Shown here one piece after another: positions 13,031 to 36,618 of a stretch of 36,702 nucleotides of DNA. This DNA is from Gallionella sp. Lineage in GTDB: Bacteria; Pseudomonadota; Gammaproteobacteria; Burkholderiales; Gallionellaceae. Every line of letters starts with the position of its first letter. The stretch's first letter is position 1. Both the position numbers and the translations under genes were made by a program. Location of the stretch: NCBI GenBank assembly GCA_025350705.1, contig JANXXH010000005.1:1-36702 (forward strand). Reading direction: 5' to 3'. The notes under the pieces are model-generated. The model worked only from the letters and a program-made list of their open reading frames with translations, was not told the origin of the DNA and did no database searches.

Positions 13031-13065
13031 AAATTTATTCCACTTCGCAATAGAAACAGAATTAA

Positions 13066-13117
13066 TGTAGGGTGCGTTTACGCACCATCGTCAAGTGGTG
13101 CGTAAACGCACCCTACA
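13066..13117. repeat. GTAGGGTGCGT-type palindromic element between convergent genes
   Basis: 22-bp perfect arms TGTAGGGTGCGTTTACGCACCA / TGGTGCGTAAACGCACCCTACA with 8-nt loop; each arm contains its own hairpin GGTGCGT-TT-ACGCACC. Confidence 0.92.
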
Positions 13118-13237
13118 AAATTACTGTTGTTTTTAATTTTAATTACCCCTGTACGTTGGCGTAAATACCGCTACGCTGATCTCATGATGCGCTTGCGCGC
13201 AACATGAGTTTGCCGTGCAATGAAAGAATTTTTCGTG

Positions 13238-14382: not shown

Positions 14383-14495
14383 TTAGTCGTTAGTCATTAG
14401 TCGCTAGACGTTAGTTGAAAAGCGAGCTGGTCGCAAGTTTGTAGACGTTAGTCGTTAGTTGAGAGGCTGCTTACCTCAACTAACGACTAACGTCT
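14383..14495. repeat. Heptanucleotide (TTAGTCG) array plus 21-bp perfect hairpin in the dnaJ-dnaK spacer
   Basis: 14383-14417 reads TTAGTCG TTAGTCA TTAGTCG CTAGACG TTAGTTG; AGACGTTAGTCGTTAGTTGAG (14443-14463) is the perfect reverse complement of 14475-14495. Confidence 0.9.
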
Positions 14496-14507
14496 AATGG
14501 CTATCAA

Positions 14508-16436
14508 CTATTTTTTATCTTTTACTTCTGTGAACTCCGCATCCACCACGTCGCCTTCATCTTTTTTTGCCTCGGCGTGTGCGTCAGCAGGTTCTCCGCC
14601 CGCTTGTGCCTTGGCTTGTTCGGCGGCATACATCTTCTCGCCGAGTTTTTGCGCGGCTGTCGACAGTGCTTCGGTCTTGGCTTCGATGGCTTCTTTGTCG
14701 TCGGTCTTGACCACTTCTTCGGCTGCCTTCAATGCAGTCTCGATTGCAGTTTTCTCGTCAGCCGTCAGATGCTCGCCATATTCCTTCAGCGATTTGTTCG
14801 TGGTGTGGATCAGCGAATCAAGCTGATTGCGCGCAGTCACCAGTTCCAGCGCCTTGCGGTCATCTTCGGCGTGGACTTCAGCATCTTGCACCATTTGCTT
14901 GATCTCGGCTTCGCTCAGGCCGGAGCTCGCTTGGATCTTGATCTTGTTCTCTTTGCCGGTCGCCTTGTCCTTTGCCGACACATGCAAGATGCCGTTTGCG
15001 TCGATGTCGAAAGTCACTTCGATCTGCGGCATGCCTCGCGGTGAAGGCGGGATGTCAGACAGGTTGAATTGGCCGAGGCTCTTGTTGCCGGAAACGATCT
15101 CGCGTTCGCCTTGCAGCACGTGGATGGTCACCGCATTCTGATTGTCTTCAGCGGTCGAGAACACTTGCGAAGCCTTGGTCGGGATCGTGGTGTTCTTCTT
15201 GATCAGCTTGGTCATCACGCCGCCCATGGTTTCGATACCAAGGCTGAGTGGTGTCACGTCGAGCAACAGTACATCCTTCACTTCGCCTTGCAGCACGCCA
15301 CCTTGAATTGCGGCACCTACGGCTACGGCTTCATCAGGATTCACGTCTTTGCGCGCTTCTTTGCCGAAGAACTCTTTCACCTTTTCTTGTACTTTTGGCA
15401 TGCGGGTCTGACCGCCGACCAGAATCACATCGCCGATGTCAGACATGTTGATACCGGCATCCTTCATTGCGATCTTGCACGGCTCGATGGTGCGCGCAAT
15501 CAGGTCTTCGACCAGGCTTTCCAGTTTGGCGCGGGTAATCTTCACCGCCAAGTGTTTCGGGCCGCTTGCATCGGCGGTCACGTAAGGAAGATTCACCTCG
15601 GTCTGTTGTGCAGAAGAGAGTTCGATCTTGGCTTTTTCTGCCGCGTCTTTCAGGCGTTGCAAGGCCAGCATGTCCTTCTTCAGGTCGATGCCGCTTTCTT
15701 TCTTGAACTCGTCGACCAGATATTCGATGACGCGCATGTCGAAATCTTCGCCGCCCAGGAAGGTGTCTCCGTTGGTGGACAGGACTTCAAACTGATGTTC
15801 GCCTTCTATCTCGGCGATGTCGATGATGGAGATGTCGAAGGTGCCGCCGCCCAGGTCATACACTGCGATCTTGCGGTCGCCTTCCTGTTTGTCCAGACCG
15901 AATGCCAGCGCGGCTGCGGTCGGCTCGTTGATGATGCGCTTCACATCAAGACCTGCGATGCGCCCGGCATCTTTGGTGGCCTGGCGCTGCGAGTCGTTGA
16001 AATATGCAGGCACAGTGATGACCGCTTCGGTGACGGGTTCGCCCAGATAATCTTCGGCGGTCTTTTTCATTTTCATCAGCACTTGCGCGGATATCTCCGG
16101 TGCGGAGATATCCTTGTCGCGCACTTTCACCCATGCGTCGCCATTCTTGGCCTTGACGATGGTGTAAGGAACCATGCCGATGTCCTTCTGTACCATGGGT
16201 TCCTCGAAACGGCGGCCGATCAGGCGCTTTACGCCATACAGAGTGTTCTTGGGGTTGGTCACGGCTTGGCGCTTGGCCGGTGCGCCGACAAGAACCTCAC
16301 CATCTTCCATGTAGGCGATGATGGACGGAGTGGTGCGAGCGCCTTCTGCGTTCTCGATCACCTTGGTCTTGCCGTTTTCCATGATGGCCACGCAAGAGTT
16401 CGTCGTGCCCAGGTCGATACCGATGATTTTTCCCAT
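14508..16436 (-). CDS. dnaK: Chaperone protein DnaK
   Basis: [48 protein letters not shown]; start set at MGKIIG. Confidence 0.98.
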
Positions 16437-16514: not shown

Positions 16515-16587
16515 AGCTTGTAGCCCGTAGCTTGTGGCTTGTAGCAAAACCGGGGCTGGTTACCCGCTACAAGCTACCGGCCACCCG
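16515..16587. repeat. Heptanucleotide (GCTTGTA) inverted array in the dnaK-grpE spacer
   Basis: GCTTGTA GCCCGTA GCTTGTG GCTTGTA GC followed by the inverted arm GCTACAAGCTACCGGCCACC (reverse complement GGTGGCCGGTAGCTTGTAGC). Confidence 0.85.
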
Positions 16588-16589
16588 CT

Positions 16590-25951: not shown

Positions 25952-25984
25952 GCATCATTCTGTATTGTCGGCAAACGCGATACA

Positions 25985-26227
25985 TAGCCAATCGGCTAAG
26001 TCATCACAAAACGATGACATAAGCCGCTGGTTAACGCAAACATAAGTCATTGGTTAGCTATGCATAGCCATCTGACCAAGTTGGCAAACTACGCCAACAT
26101 AAGTCATTGGTTAGCTTTGCATAGCCAATCGACTGATGAGACTACTAGCCATTCCACCAGGTTGTCAAAGAACAACAACCAGGTGGCTGGTTATAAGCCA
26201 GCAAAAACGCTGGCAAGTCGCTGGTTA
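25985..26227. repeat. 48-bp modular cruciform repeat cluster, locus A (units 25985-26033, 26065-26113, 26146-26193 nested in 26122-26227, plus an orphan 3' half 26043-26056)
   Basis: Each unit begins TAGCCA and ends TGGTTA, with variable complementary internal stems (GTCATC/GATGAC, GTTGGC/GCCAAC, GGTTGT/ACAACC, GCCAGC/GCTGGC) around A-rich loops. Confidence 0.9.
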
Positions 26228-26238
26228 GCGGCAGCTCT

Positions 26239-26886
26239 GTGTTGGGCTGCCGTTTTATTTTGGAGCGAGATTTGAAATTCCATCCTTCCACGCAAATTCT
26301 GTCCTGGTGCTTAATGGTTGCGGTCTTGCAAGTGTTGACGCTTGGAACATTGCTGGCTGTGGTCGGGATTTTTCTGGTACTGGCGCTGTTGGTGTCAGCG
26401 CGCAAGCTTATGCAGCTGTTGCGCCGCACGCGCTGGATCATGCTGTCGTTATTGCTGATTTACGCTTACAGCACACCCGGACAGCCTCTGCTTGAGGTAC
26501 TCGGAATATTCAGCCCCAGCCGTGAAGGACTGACTGATGGCGTGTTGCAATTCACTCGTTTGCTGGCTGCGTTAGCCGGATTGGCGATATTGCTGGATCA
26601 CTTGCATCGCCAGCAGTTAATCGCAGGTCTGTATACTTTGCTTGCTCCATTGCAATTGATCGGTGTGTCGCGTGAACGAGTCGCGGTGCGCCTGGCATTG
26701 ACACTGCATTATGCAGAAGTCGCGATGTTGCGCGAGACGCACACATGGCAAGACAACCTGCGCAGTTTGTTTGAACCGCATGATGAGATCAGCAAGCAAA
26801 TGGAATTGACGCTGTATCGTTTTACTATCCATGACGGATTGTTGGCGGGCATTGCACTGTTGCTGTTATTAGGGGCTATGCGATGA
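26239..26886 (+). CDS. EcfT/CbiQ-like energy-coupling-factor transporter transmembrane protein (tentative)
   Basis: Hydrophobic 215 aa with a CbiQ-like layout. Start uncertain (GTG 26239, or a TTG near 26272 preceded by GGAG). Confidence 0.55.
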   Translation: MLGCRFILERDLKFHPSTQILSWCLMVAVLQVLTLGTLLAVVGIFLVLALLVSARKLMQLLRRTRWIMLSLLLIYAYSTPGQPLLEVLGIFSPSREGLTDGVLQFTRLLAALAGLAILLDHLHRQQLIAGLYTLLAPLQLIGVSRERVAVRLALTLHYAEVAMLRETHTWQDNLRSLFEPHDEISKQMELTLYRFTIHDGLLAGIALLLLLGAMR

Positions 26887-32196: not shown

Positions 32197-32420
32197 GGTA
32201 GGGTGGGCACGTTTTTGCCTCGCAGAGGTTCTCGCACTCGGAGGGTGTGCCCACGTTGATTTCCACGCCGCGTGGGCATAACCAGCGACTTAGCTGTCTT
32301 CTTTTGACAGCCTAGTCGATTGGCTATAACCAATGACTTGCCCAGCGTCTTTTGCTGGGTTAGTCAGATGGCTAGCAGTCATATCAGCAGTTACACTAGA
32401 TGAAGCTTGCCCACCCTACC
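32197..32420. repeat. Composite palindrome island with 13-bp outer inverted repeats (GGTAGGGTGGGCA) enclosing two 48-bp cruciform units (locus B)
   Basis: GGTAGGGTGGGCA 32197-32209 versus TGCCCACCCTACC 32408-32420 (perfect); internal GTGGGCAC/GTGCCCAC/CGTGGGCA; cruciform units 32279-32326 and 32327-32374 directly abutting, in reverse orientation to loci A and C. Confidence 0.85.
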
Positions 32421-36421: not shown

Positions 36422-36451
36422 TTGACATTTAGCTGCGGCAGGTGTTACTTT
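36422..36451 (+). promoter_or_regulatory. Putative sigma70 promoter for metZ
   Basis: Perfect -35 TTGACA (36422-36427) and a weak extended -10 TGTTACTTT (TACTTT 36446-36451) with 18-nt spacing. Confidence 0.5.
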
Positions 36452-36455
36452 CTAC

Positions 36456-36516
36456 CTGCGCCGATTTGAGGAACAGCTTGCGGGCGCATTATAAATACTG
36501 CTAAAGCGAGGGAAAC
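36456..36516 (+). promoter_or_regulatory. SAM-II-type riboswitch aptamer upstream of metZ
   Basis: CTGCGCCGATTTGAGGAACAGCTTGCGGGCGCATTATAAATACTGCTAAAGCGAGGG: conserved GATTTG, GCTTGC, ATAAAT and GCTAAAG blocks in order; P1 TGCGCC (36457-36462)/GGCGCA (36483-36488); located just 5' of a methionine biosynthesis gene. Confidence 0.85.
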
Positions 36517-36603
36517 CCGGTTTAGCTCTGCGTAGCCAATCGGCTAGGCTGTCAAAAGACGACAGCCAAGTCGCTGGTTAGCGCCAAGCTATCCGGGTTT
36601 TTT
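36513..36603 (+). terminator. Putative intrinsic terminator/expression platform of the SAM-II riboswitch, with a repeat-bearing loop
   Basis: AAACCCGG (36513-36520) pairs with CCGGGTTT (36593-36600) followed by TTT; the ~72-nt loop holds one cruciform unit. Confidence 0.65.
36533..36580 (+). repeat. 48-bp modular cruciform repeat unit, locus C
   Basis: TAGCCA-AT-CGGCT-A-GGCTGTC-AAAAGAC-GACAGCC-A-AGTCG-C-TGGTTA. Confidence 0.9.
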
Positions 36604-36618
36604 CATTAAGGGGTCATC

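Follow-up and report, generated by a model that had tools for sequence, protein, structure and literature searches.

How can a short repeat keep its fold while the sequence of its stems is exchanged, and by what route do its copies reach new sites? These questions are raised by a stretch of 36,702 nucleotides (the window), which is contig C53 of a 2.69-Mb draft genome of Gallionella, with relatives in the Gallionellaceae, and in which a first-pass annotation had described units of 48–49 bp with the ends TAGCCA and TGGTTA as a dispersed cruciform repeat.

The hairpin units and their family

Reading of the sequence, combined with pattern and covariance-model matches, yielded seven hairpin units at three places in the window (Table 1). 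Every unit of the first-pass annotation was found at its position and with the arm sequence described, and units at 32279–32326 (minus strand) and 36533–36580 (plus strand) were added. Locus A (25967–26227) is a nest of units between the stop codon and the terminator of fimV, locus B (32279–32374, minus strand) consists of two units in exact tandem, and locus C (36533–36580, plus strand) is a single unit amid terminator-like hairpin arms, 3′ of a SAM_alpha riboswitch. No Rfam family matched the hairpin, and only this riboswitch (36448–36521) exceeded the gathering threshold in the window. SAM_alpha is, judged by its name, the alpha-proteobacterial type; here, it occurs in a Gallionellaceae genome, in a region (36448–36604) that also holds C1 and the terminator-like hairpin. 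Elsewhere in the window, the dnaJ–dnaK gap (14384–14510) contains dense direct and inverted repeats of the TAGTCGTTAGTC type, apparently no kin to the hairpin family, the dnaK–grpE gap (16515–16589) contains imperfect inverted repeats of the AGCTTGTAGC type, and an inverted repeat of 33 nt with an 8-nt loop (GGTGCGTTTACGCACC; 13055–13128) is possibly a terminator or another palindromic repeat.

Table 1. Hairpin units, leaders and adjoining features in the window.
Feature	Position	Strand	Basis
Oldest unit of locus A, decayed left half (GTCGGCAAAC)	25967–25976	+	Sequence; first unit at the equivalent site in L361 and L363
A1 leader, type-2-like (GCGATACA)	25977–25984	+	Position, likeness to GCTTTGCA leaders
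Hairpin unit A1, 49 bp, arm CGGCT/AGCCG	25985–26033	+	Sequence, pattern, covariance model
Oldest unit of locus A, right half (ACGCAAACATAAGTCATTGGTTA)	26034–26056	+	Sequence, comparison with other copies
A2 leader, type 2 (GCTATGCA)	26057–26064	+	Sequence, leader consensus
Hairpin unit A2, 49 bp, arm TGAC/GTCA	26065–26113	+	Sequence, pattern, covariance model
A3 leader, type 2 (GCTTTGCA)	26114–26121	+	Sequence, leader consensus
Unit A3, left part (TAGCCAATCGAC), split at C^T by A4	26122–26133	+	Same geometry in L115
A4 leader, type 1, 12 nt (TGATGAGACTAC)	26134–26145	+	Leader consensus
Hairpin unit A4, 48 bp, arm CCACC/GGTGG, inside A3	26146–26193	+	Sequence, pattern, covariance model
Unit A3, right part (TAAGCCAGCAAAAACGCTGGCAAGTCGCTGGTTA)	26194–26227	+	Sequence
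fimV intrinsic terminator, nest built before it	26229–26256	+	Orthologous intergenic regions
Hairpin unit B1, older, downstream member of tandem pair	32279–32326	-	Sequence, pattern, covariance model
Hairpin unit B2, inserted between B1 leader and B1 hairpin	32327–32374	-	Sequence, pattern, covariance model
B2 leader, type 1 (TGATATGACTGC)	32375–32386	-	Tandem-pair analysis
B1 leader, degenerate type 1 (TAGTGTAACTGC), parted from B1 hairpin by B2	32387–32398	-	Tandem-pair analysis
C1 leader, type-2-like (GCTCTGCG)	36525–36532	+	Leader consensus
Hairpin unit C1, between terminator-like arms AAACCCGG (36513–36520) and CCGGGTTTTTT	36533–36580	+	Pattern, covariance model, Rfam, flanks

Across the genome, the pattern TAGCCA-N32..40-TGGTTA matched 67 times, compared with twice for the reversed pattern, and the covariance model gave 85 matches (best E value 7e-14), which indicates a family of units and not chance. 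The dispersed family outside Rfam that had been proposed was borne out. In a first sample of the genus, 24 of 25 genomes carried the hairpin, with 2–111 copies each; in the Gallionellaceae, it was present in 50 of 61 genomes and 14 of 15 genera, genus g20 being almost free of it. A literature search of incomplete coverage found no paper describing this family.

Pairing and mismatches in the fold

The consensus fold of 49 distinct 48-mers comprises a 6-bp foot (G·T at 3/46), a 2×1 internal loop, 5 bp, an A·A mismatch, 7 bp and an A-rich loop of 7 nt. In this set, 94.7% of the stem cells were paired (82.8% in shuffles), and changes on both sides of a pair affected 120 cells (41.9 in shuffles) at 11 of the 18 stem pairs. 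The inner stems, previously called complementary but unrelated in sequence, do keep their pairing; “unrelated” was an overstatement, as they represent a limited set of related variants. Because the shuffles were uncorrected for the relatedness of the copies, all column pairs were also ranked by background-corrected mutual information. Of the top eight, seven were pairs within the stem and the remaining one was 8/42 in the internal loop, and this result was repeated in 158 leader-bearing copies from many genomes. Both sides of the stem change together and a specific folded strand is, evidently, preserved; the data fit a single folded strand no less well than a cruciform.

The correlated 2-nt/1-nt internal loop noted before was likewise recovered: positions 8/42 are T·C or C·T in 174 of 180 copies, which means that the mismatch switches jointly and never turns into a base pair in those. 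The states of the loop in a wider set were TT..C (115 copies), TC..T (54) and AT..C (3). Such covariation of a mismatch that does not pair points to recognition of the fold by a protein. Positions 14/36 form an A·A mismatch in 168 of 180 copies. The foot is nearly constant within the genome (G·T at 3/46 in 76/81, in a covariance-model alignment with the foot not fixed), and other lineages have kept the leader (see below) with feet altered as pairs (TAAGCA/TGCTTA, CAGCCA/TGGCTG, TAAGTA/TACTTA). That one-sided intermediates are rarer than double changes is in line with hairpin-templated mutation, that is, template switching that maintains complementarity without selection on structure. However, mutation templated by the opposite arm would make mismatches pair and so erase them, and both 8/42 and 14/36 persist, which renders this explanation very unlikely; from the same persistence we infer selection for a fold that includes specified mismatches. 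The initial proposal, that the folded strand is selected or is a state through which the repeat passes, is supported by the compensatory changes together with the conserved mismatches and the covarying, unpaired 8/42.

One-sided changes in the stem produced A·C on the top strand (G·T on the bottom strand) in 101 cases and G·T on the top strand in 23 (51 and 18, respectively, leaving out pair 15/35). This asymmetry speaks for folding of the bottom strand, but a mutation bias specific to one strand could also produce it, and the copies are related. Predicted energies are nearly equal for the two strands and favour neither. Of 70 copies in three single-contig genomes whose GC skew is clear, 47 had the top strand on the lagging-strand template (p = 0.006 against 0.5, p = 0.27 against 0.6), an orientation not distinguishable from gene bias, since ∼57% of the long ORFs are leading. 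The two strand signals disagree, the wobble pairs indicating the bottom strand and the chromosomal orientation the top strand on the lagging-strand template.

Leaders, targets and nested copies

The leader, the nested insertion and the duplication-free target sites, all of which the first-pass annotation had missed, are the most informative features of the family. Aligning the flanks of 223 copies revealed a conserved leader 5′ of the hairpin. Type 1 (174 copies) measures 60 bp, with the 12-nt leader TGATGRAACWAC preceding the 48-bp hairpin, has the target C^T, and stands in the context C, TGATGRAACWAC, hairpin, T. Type 2 (21 copies) measures 56 bp, with the leader GCTTTGCA preceding the 48-bp hairpin, has the target R^AC, and reads GCTTTGCA, hairpin, A. 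The type-1 copies were sorted by a loose leader pattern, and the leader is equally plain in the 223 unsorted copies; their consensus is C at −13 (83%), T at −12 (91%), G at −11 (96%), T at −9 (97%), C at −4 (100%), C at −1 (99%) and T at +1 (94%). No leader position tracking the target was found in a covariation test of the type-1 copies. A hammerhead ribozyme (CTGATGA..GAAAC) was considered for the leader and rejected, as stem II is absent and the core A is a G in 23% of the copies.

At locus A, the unit at 26122 was present as annotated, and its structure could be refined: A3 is an older copy of 46 bp, which is restored, with nothing lost or duplicated, by joining 26133 to 26194, and it is split by A4, a younger 60-bp copy (12-nt leader at 26134–26145 and hairpin at 26146–26193). 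Removing the nested unit (a type-2 unit from the loop, or a type-1 unit from the arm) restored an older unit of 47–48 bp without visible loss or duplication in five cases (L096, L161, L187, L361 and L115). The order leader–leader–hairpin–hairpin is expected where an older unit receives a 60-bp copy between its leader and its hairpin. Among 18 tandem hairpin pairs, both leader positions were readable in 17 (L131 is at a contig end), and 13 of these carried two leaders in an exact 12-nt register; the other four had one recognised leader or none. Older copies of the family itself are recurrent targets, be it at the leader/hairpin junction, in the arm or in the loop. Foreign hairpins were targeted by type 1 barely above shuffled flanks (p 0.02–0.03), and for type 2, enrichment was clear only through self-nesting. 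Units also occur in the loop of another hairpin repeat (CCGAAAAACTTTTGGCCGGGCACCCG), which in turn sits in unit loops (L051 at 6047, L048, L175, L360). At C2:47014–47088 of the same genome as the window (L175), a 75-bp unit has a foreign insert in its loop, which suggests that the loop tolerates cargo.

The fimV terminator site is mostly empty (∼30 bp) among 30 orthologous loci of the genus. It contains one unit in L363, a unit in the loop of that unit in L361, and larger nests in L369, L360 and the window; from these empty, single and nested states it follows that the nest grew through successive insertions. In nested copies as well as at orthologous sites, insertions are exact and target-site duplication is absent, unlike with classical DDE-transposase MITEs, which share with the units that they are short, non-autonomous and contain inverted repeats. 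Exact insertion without duplication, the bottom-strand wobble signal and the asymmetric unpaired bases are all compatible with a family of integron-like attC sites, recombined as folded bottom strand by a tyrosine recombinase; attC sites, too, act as a single strand that is folded and in which unpaired bases are conserved, and their sequence is free if pairing is kept. However, the core boxes GTTRRRY/RYYYAAC were not found at the ends, the right boundary being TGGTTA followed by T (in 94%) and the left one AC followed by TAGCCA. R-box motifs are lacking, no gene cassettes lie between the units, and the units are dispersed, which makes an attC family extremely improbable.

Some copies are old. 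Orthologous copies may be nearly unchanged (0–2 differences in 48) while their flanks are 71–85% identical (L031/L055, L034/L418, L092/L005), and in others (L062/L138, L102/L009), compensatory double changes number one to three; differences of this kind reflect either in-place change or replacement by conversion, the two not being separable. Copies preserved while flanks drift, compensatory changes and the location of units beside terminators would suit a structured RNA element (e.g., an mRNA 3′-end or antisense hairpin) whose folding is selected, copying being secondary. Such a role is distinctly unlikely: the units had no fixed orientation to neighbouring genes (according to rough, unreliable ORF calls), the strand favoured by the wobble asymmetry is, of the two, the one that more often lies antisense to the neighbours, most species have no unit at the orthologous site, and exact nested insertion would be left unexplained.

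Proposed mobilisation and related elements

The hairpins constitute a large repeat family that is constrained in its fold, nests in its own copies, inserts exactly and falls into two leader/target classes. We give an even chance to their being a non-autonomous mobile element, REP/MITE-like, whose folded single strand would be recognised and inserted by a trans-acting enzyme, with the leader choosing the target. One strand would fold up, fixed mismatches included, into the hairpin; a single-strand nuclease or transposase, acting in trans and HUH-like in logic, would recognise fold and leader and join the folded strand into single-stranded targets, for example hairpin feet and loops. If the enzyme needs the fold, stem changes would survive only as complementary pairs. 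IS200/IS605 and REP elements carry the guide for their cleavage site beside the hairpin; the leader adjoins the hairpin at this very position and would pick the target. As a precedent, TnpA_REP cleaves single-stranded REPs at CT, a tetranucleotide 5′ of the palindrome helps to choose the site, and the E. coli REP requires its stem mismatch (PMC8266576).

Linkage to a Y1/RAYT transposase, for which the first-pass annotation had advised looking, was not supported. When 49 genomes were searched with the PF01797 profile and eight with a family-specific profile, no RAYT/Y1 gene was linked to the units. Y1 was absent by two profiles from G466 (single contig, 99% complete, 10 copies), G006 (draft, 99% complete, nine copies) and G022 (draft, 83% complete, 111 copies), and by the one profile used from G361 (99% complete, nine copies). 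RAYTs do occur in many of the genomes searched, and Y1/RAYT genes are frequent in g20, the genus almost devoid of the element. Among ∼60 Y1-containing or related loci, a unit was nearby only at L207 (280 bp past an IS200-type gene), at L332 and at one locus of G388; units never bracketed RAYTs, and no Y1 locus had both element ends. The RAYT of G388, with a unit ∼150 bp away, was rejected as a linked mobiliser, as the unit sits within the GTAG REP that belongs to this RAYT, which is itself frameshifted. The only RAYT found in the genome of the window (L021; contig C56, 18938–19285) is flanked by its own REP (GTAGCCCGGATG..ATCCGGG). It is possible that an enzyme was missed by both profiles, is supplied by a plasmid or phage, or has since been lost.

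A strict REP family, moved by a RAYT (Y1 tyrosine transposase) later lost from many genomes, is rather unlikely. It would account for the CT dinucleotide at the type-1 junction (C at −13 in 83%, T at −12 in 91% and T at +1 in 94%; this concerns the junction sequence only, and type 2 differs), the conserved mismatches, the tetranucleotide adjoining the hairpin, the dispersal of copies between genes, and the RAYTs present in many of the genomes. GTAG REPs and BIMEs mobilised by RAYTs are, like the units, short dispersed palindromes with a conserved mismatch and a CT boundary (type 1), non-autonomous, intergenic and often clustered. However, GTAG is absent from the 5′ foot on both strands: the top-strand foot is CWAC or TGCA, the 5′ side on the bottom strand is only target sequence, and GTWG occurs only 3′ of the bottom-strand hairpin. 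In the genomes searched, no RAYT gene was flanked by the repeats, and in some element-rich genomes no Y1 gene could be detected. In contrast to REPs and BIMEs, the units combine a 48-bp hairpin with a leader of 8–12 nt, have no linked RAYT, and are inserted one into another instead of being paired head to head. Being REP- or IS200/IS605-like in working, yet without the two defining features of GTAG REPs, they are regarded here as a novel variant among the dispersed hairpin elements. It is conceivable, though doubtful, that they represent a new mobile system altogether, in which a non-Y1 enzyme inserts folded single-stranded hairpins with interchangeable stems, guided by the leader and without duplication, into hairpins including their own copies.

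Hairpin MITEs derived from IS200/IS605 resemble the family in that insertion proceeds without target duplication, a guide-like sequence lies beside the hairpin, and a change of guide accompanies a change of target; in contrast, the Y1 loci yielded no parent element that shares these ends, and some carriers are without Y1 genes. CGTC REPs, also high-copy palindromes without a dedicated transposase, have stems of 8–9 bp, loops of 4–5 nt and a CGTC tag, whereas the units have three stacked stems, a 7-nt loop and another leader; how short palindromic repeats spread without a linked transposase has been stated as an open question for CGTC REPs (PMC3733652). The present family is a clean test case: its junctions are exact, its two classes of leader come with two classes of target, one and the same site is empty in some sister species and occupied in others, and a mismatch covaries unpaired. 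It could help identify the mobilising enzyme.

Within 300 genomes of the order, matches were also found outside the Gallionellaceae (G086, G152, G224, G112, G218, G182, G317 and others), and the matches listed from a scan of 85,488 species genomes bore the names Gallionella, Sideroxydans, Ferrigenium, Gallionellaceae and Nitrosomonadales, with a few broader or other ones. The type-1 leader is joined to hairpins with different feet in G152 and G112, and a type-2-like leader to 41-bp hairpins in G218. The latter leader reads GCYTTGCA (L437–L441), and the copies are partly 49-bp tandem repeats near contig ends. In G152 (L425–L434), leader and hairpin, with the feet CAGCCA/TGGCTG, are contained in a composite repeat of ∼190 bp present in several near-identical copies; the hairpin can thus also travel in larger repeats.
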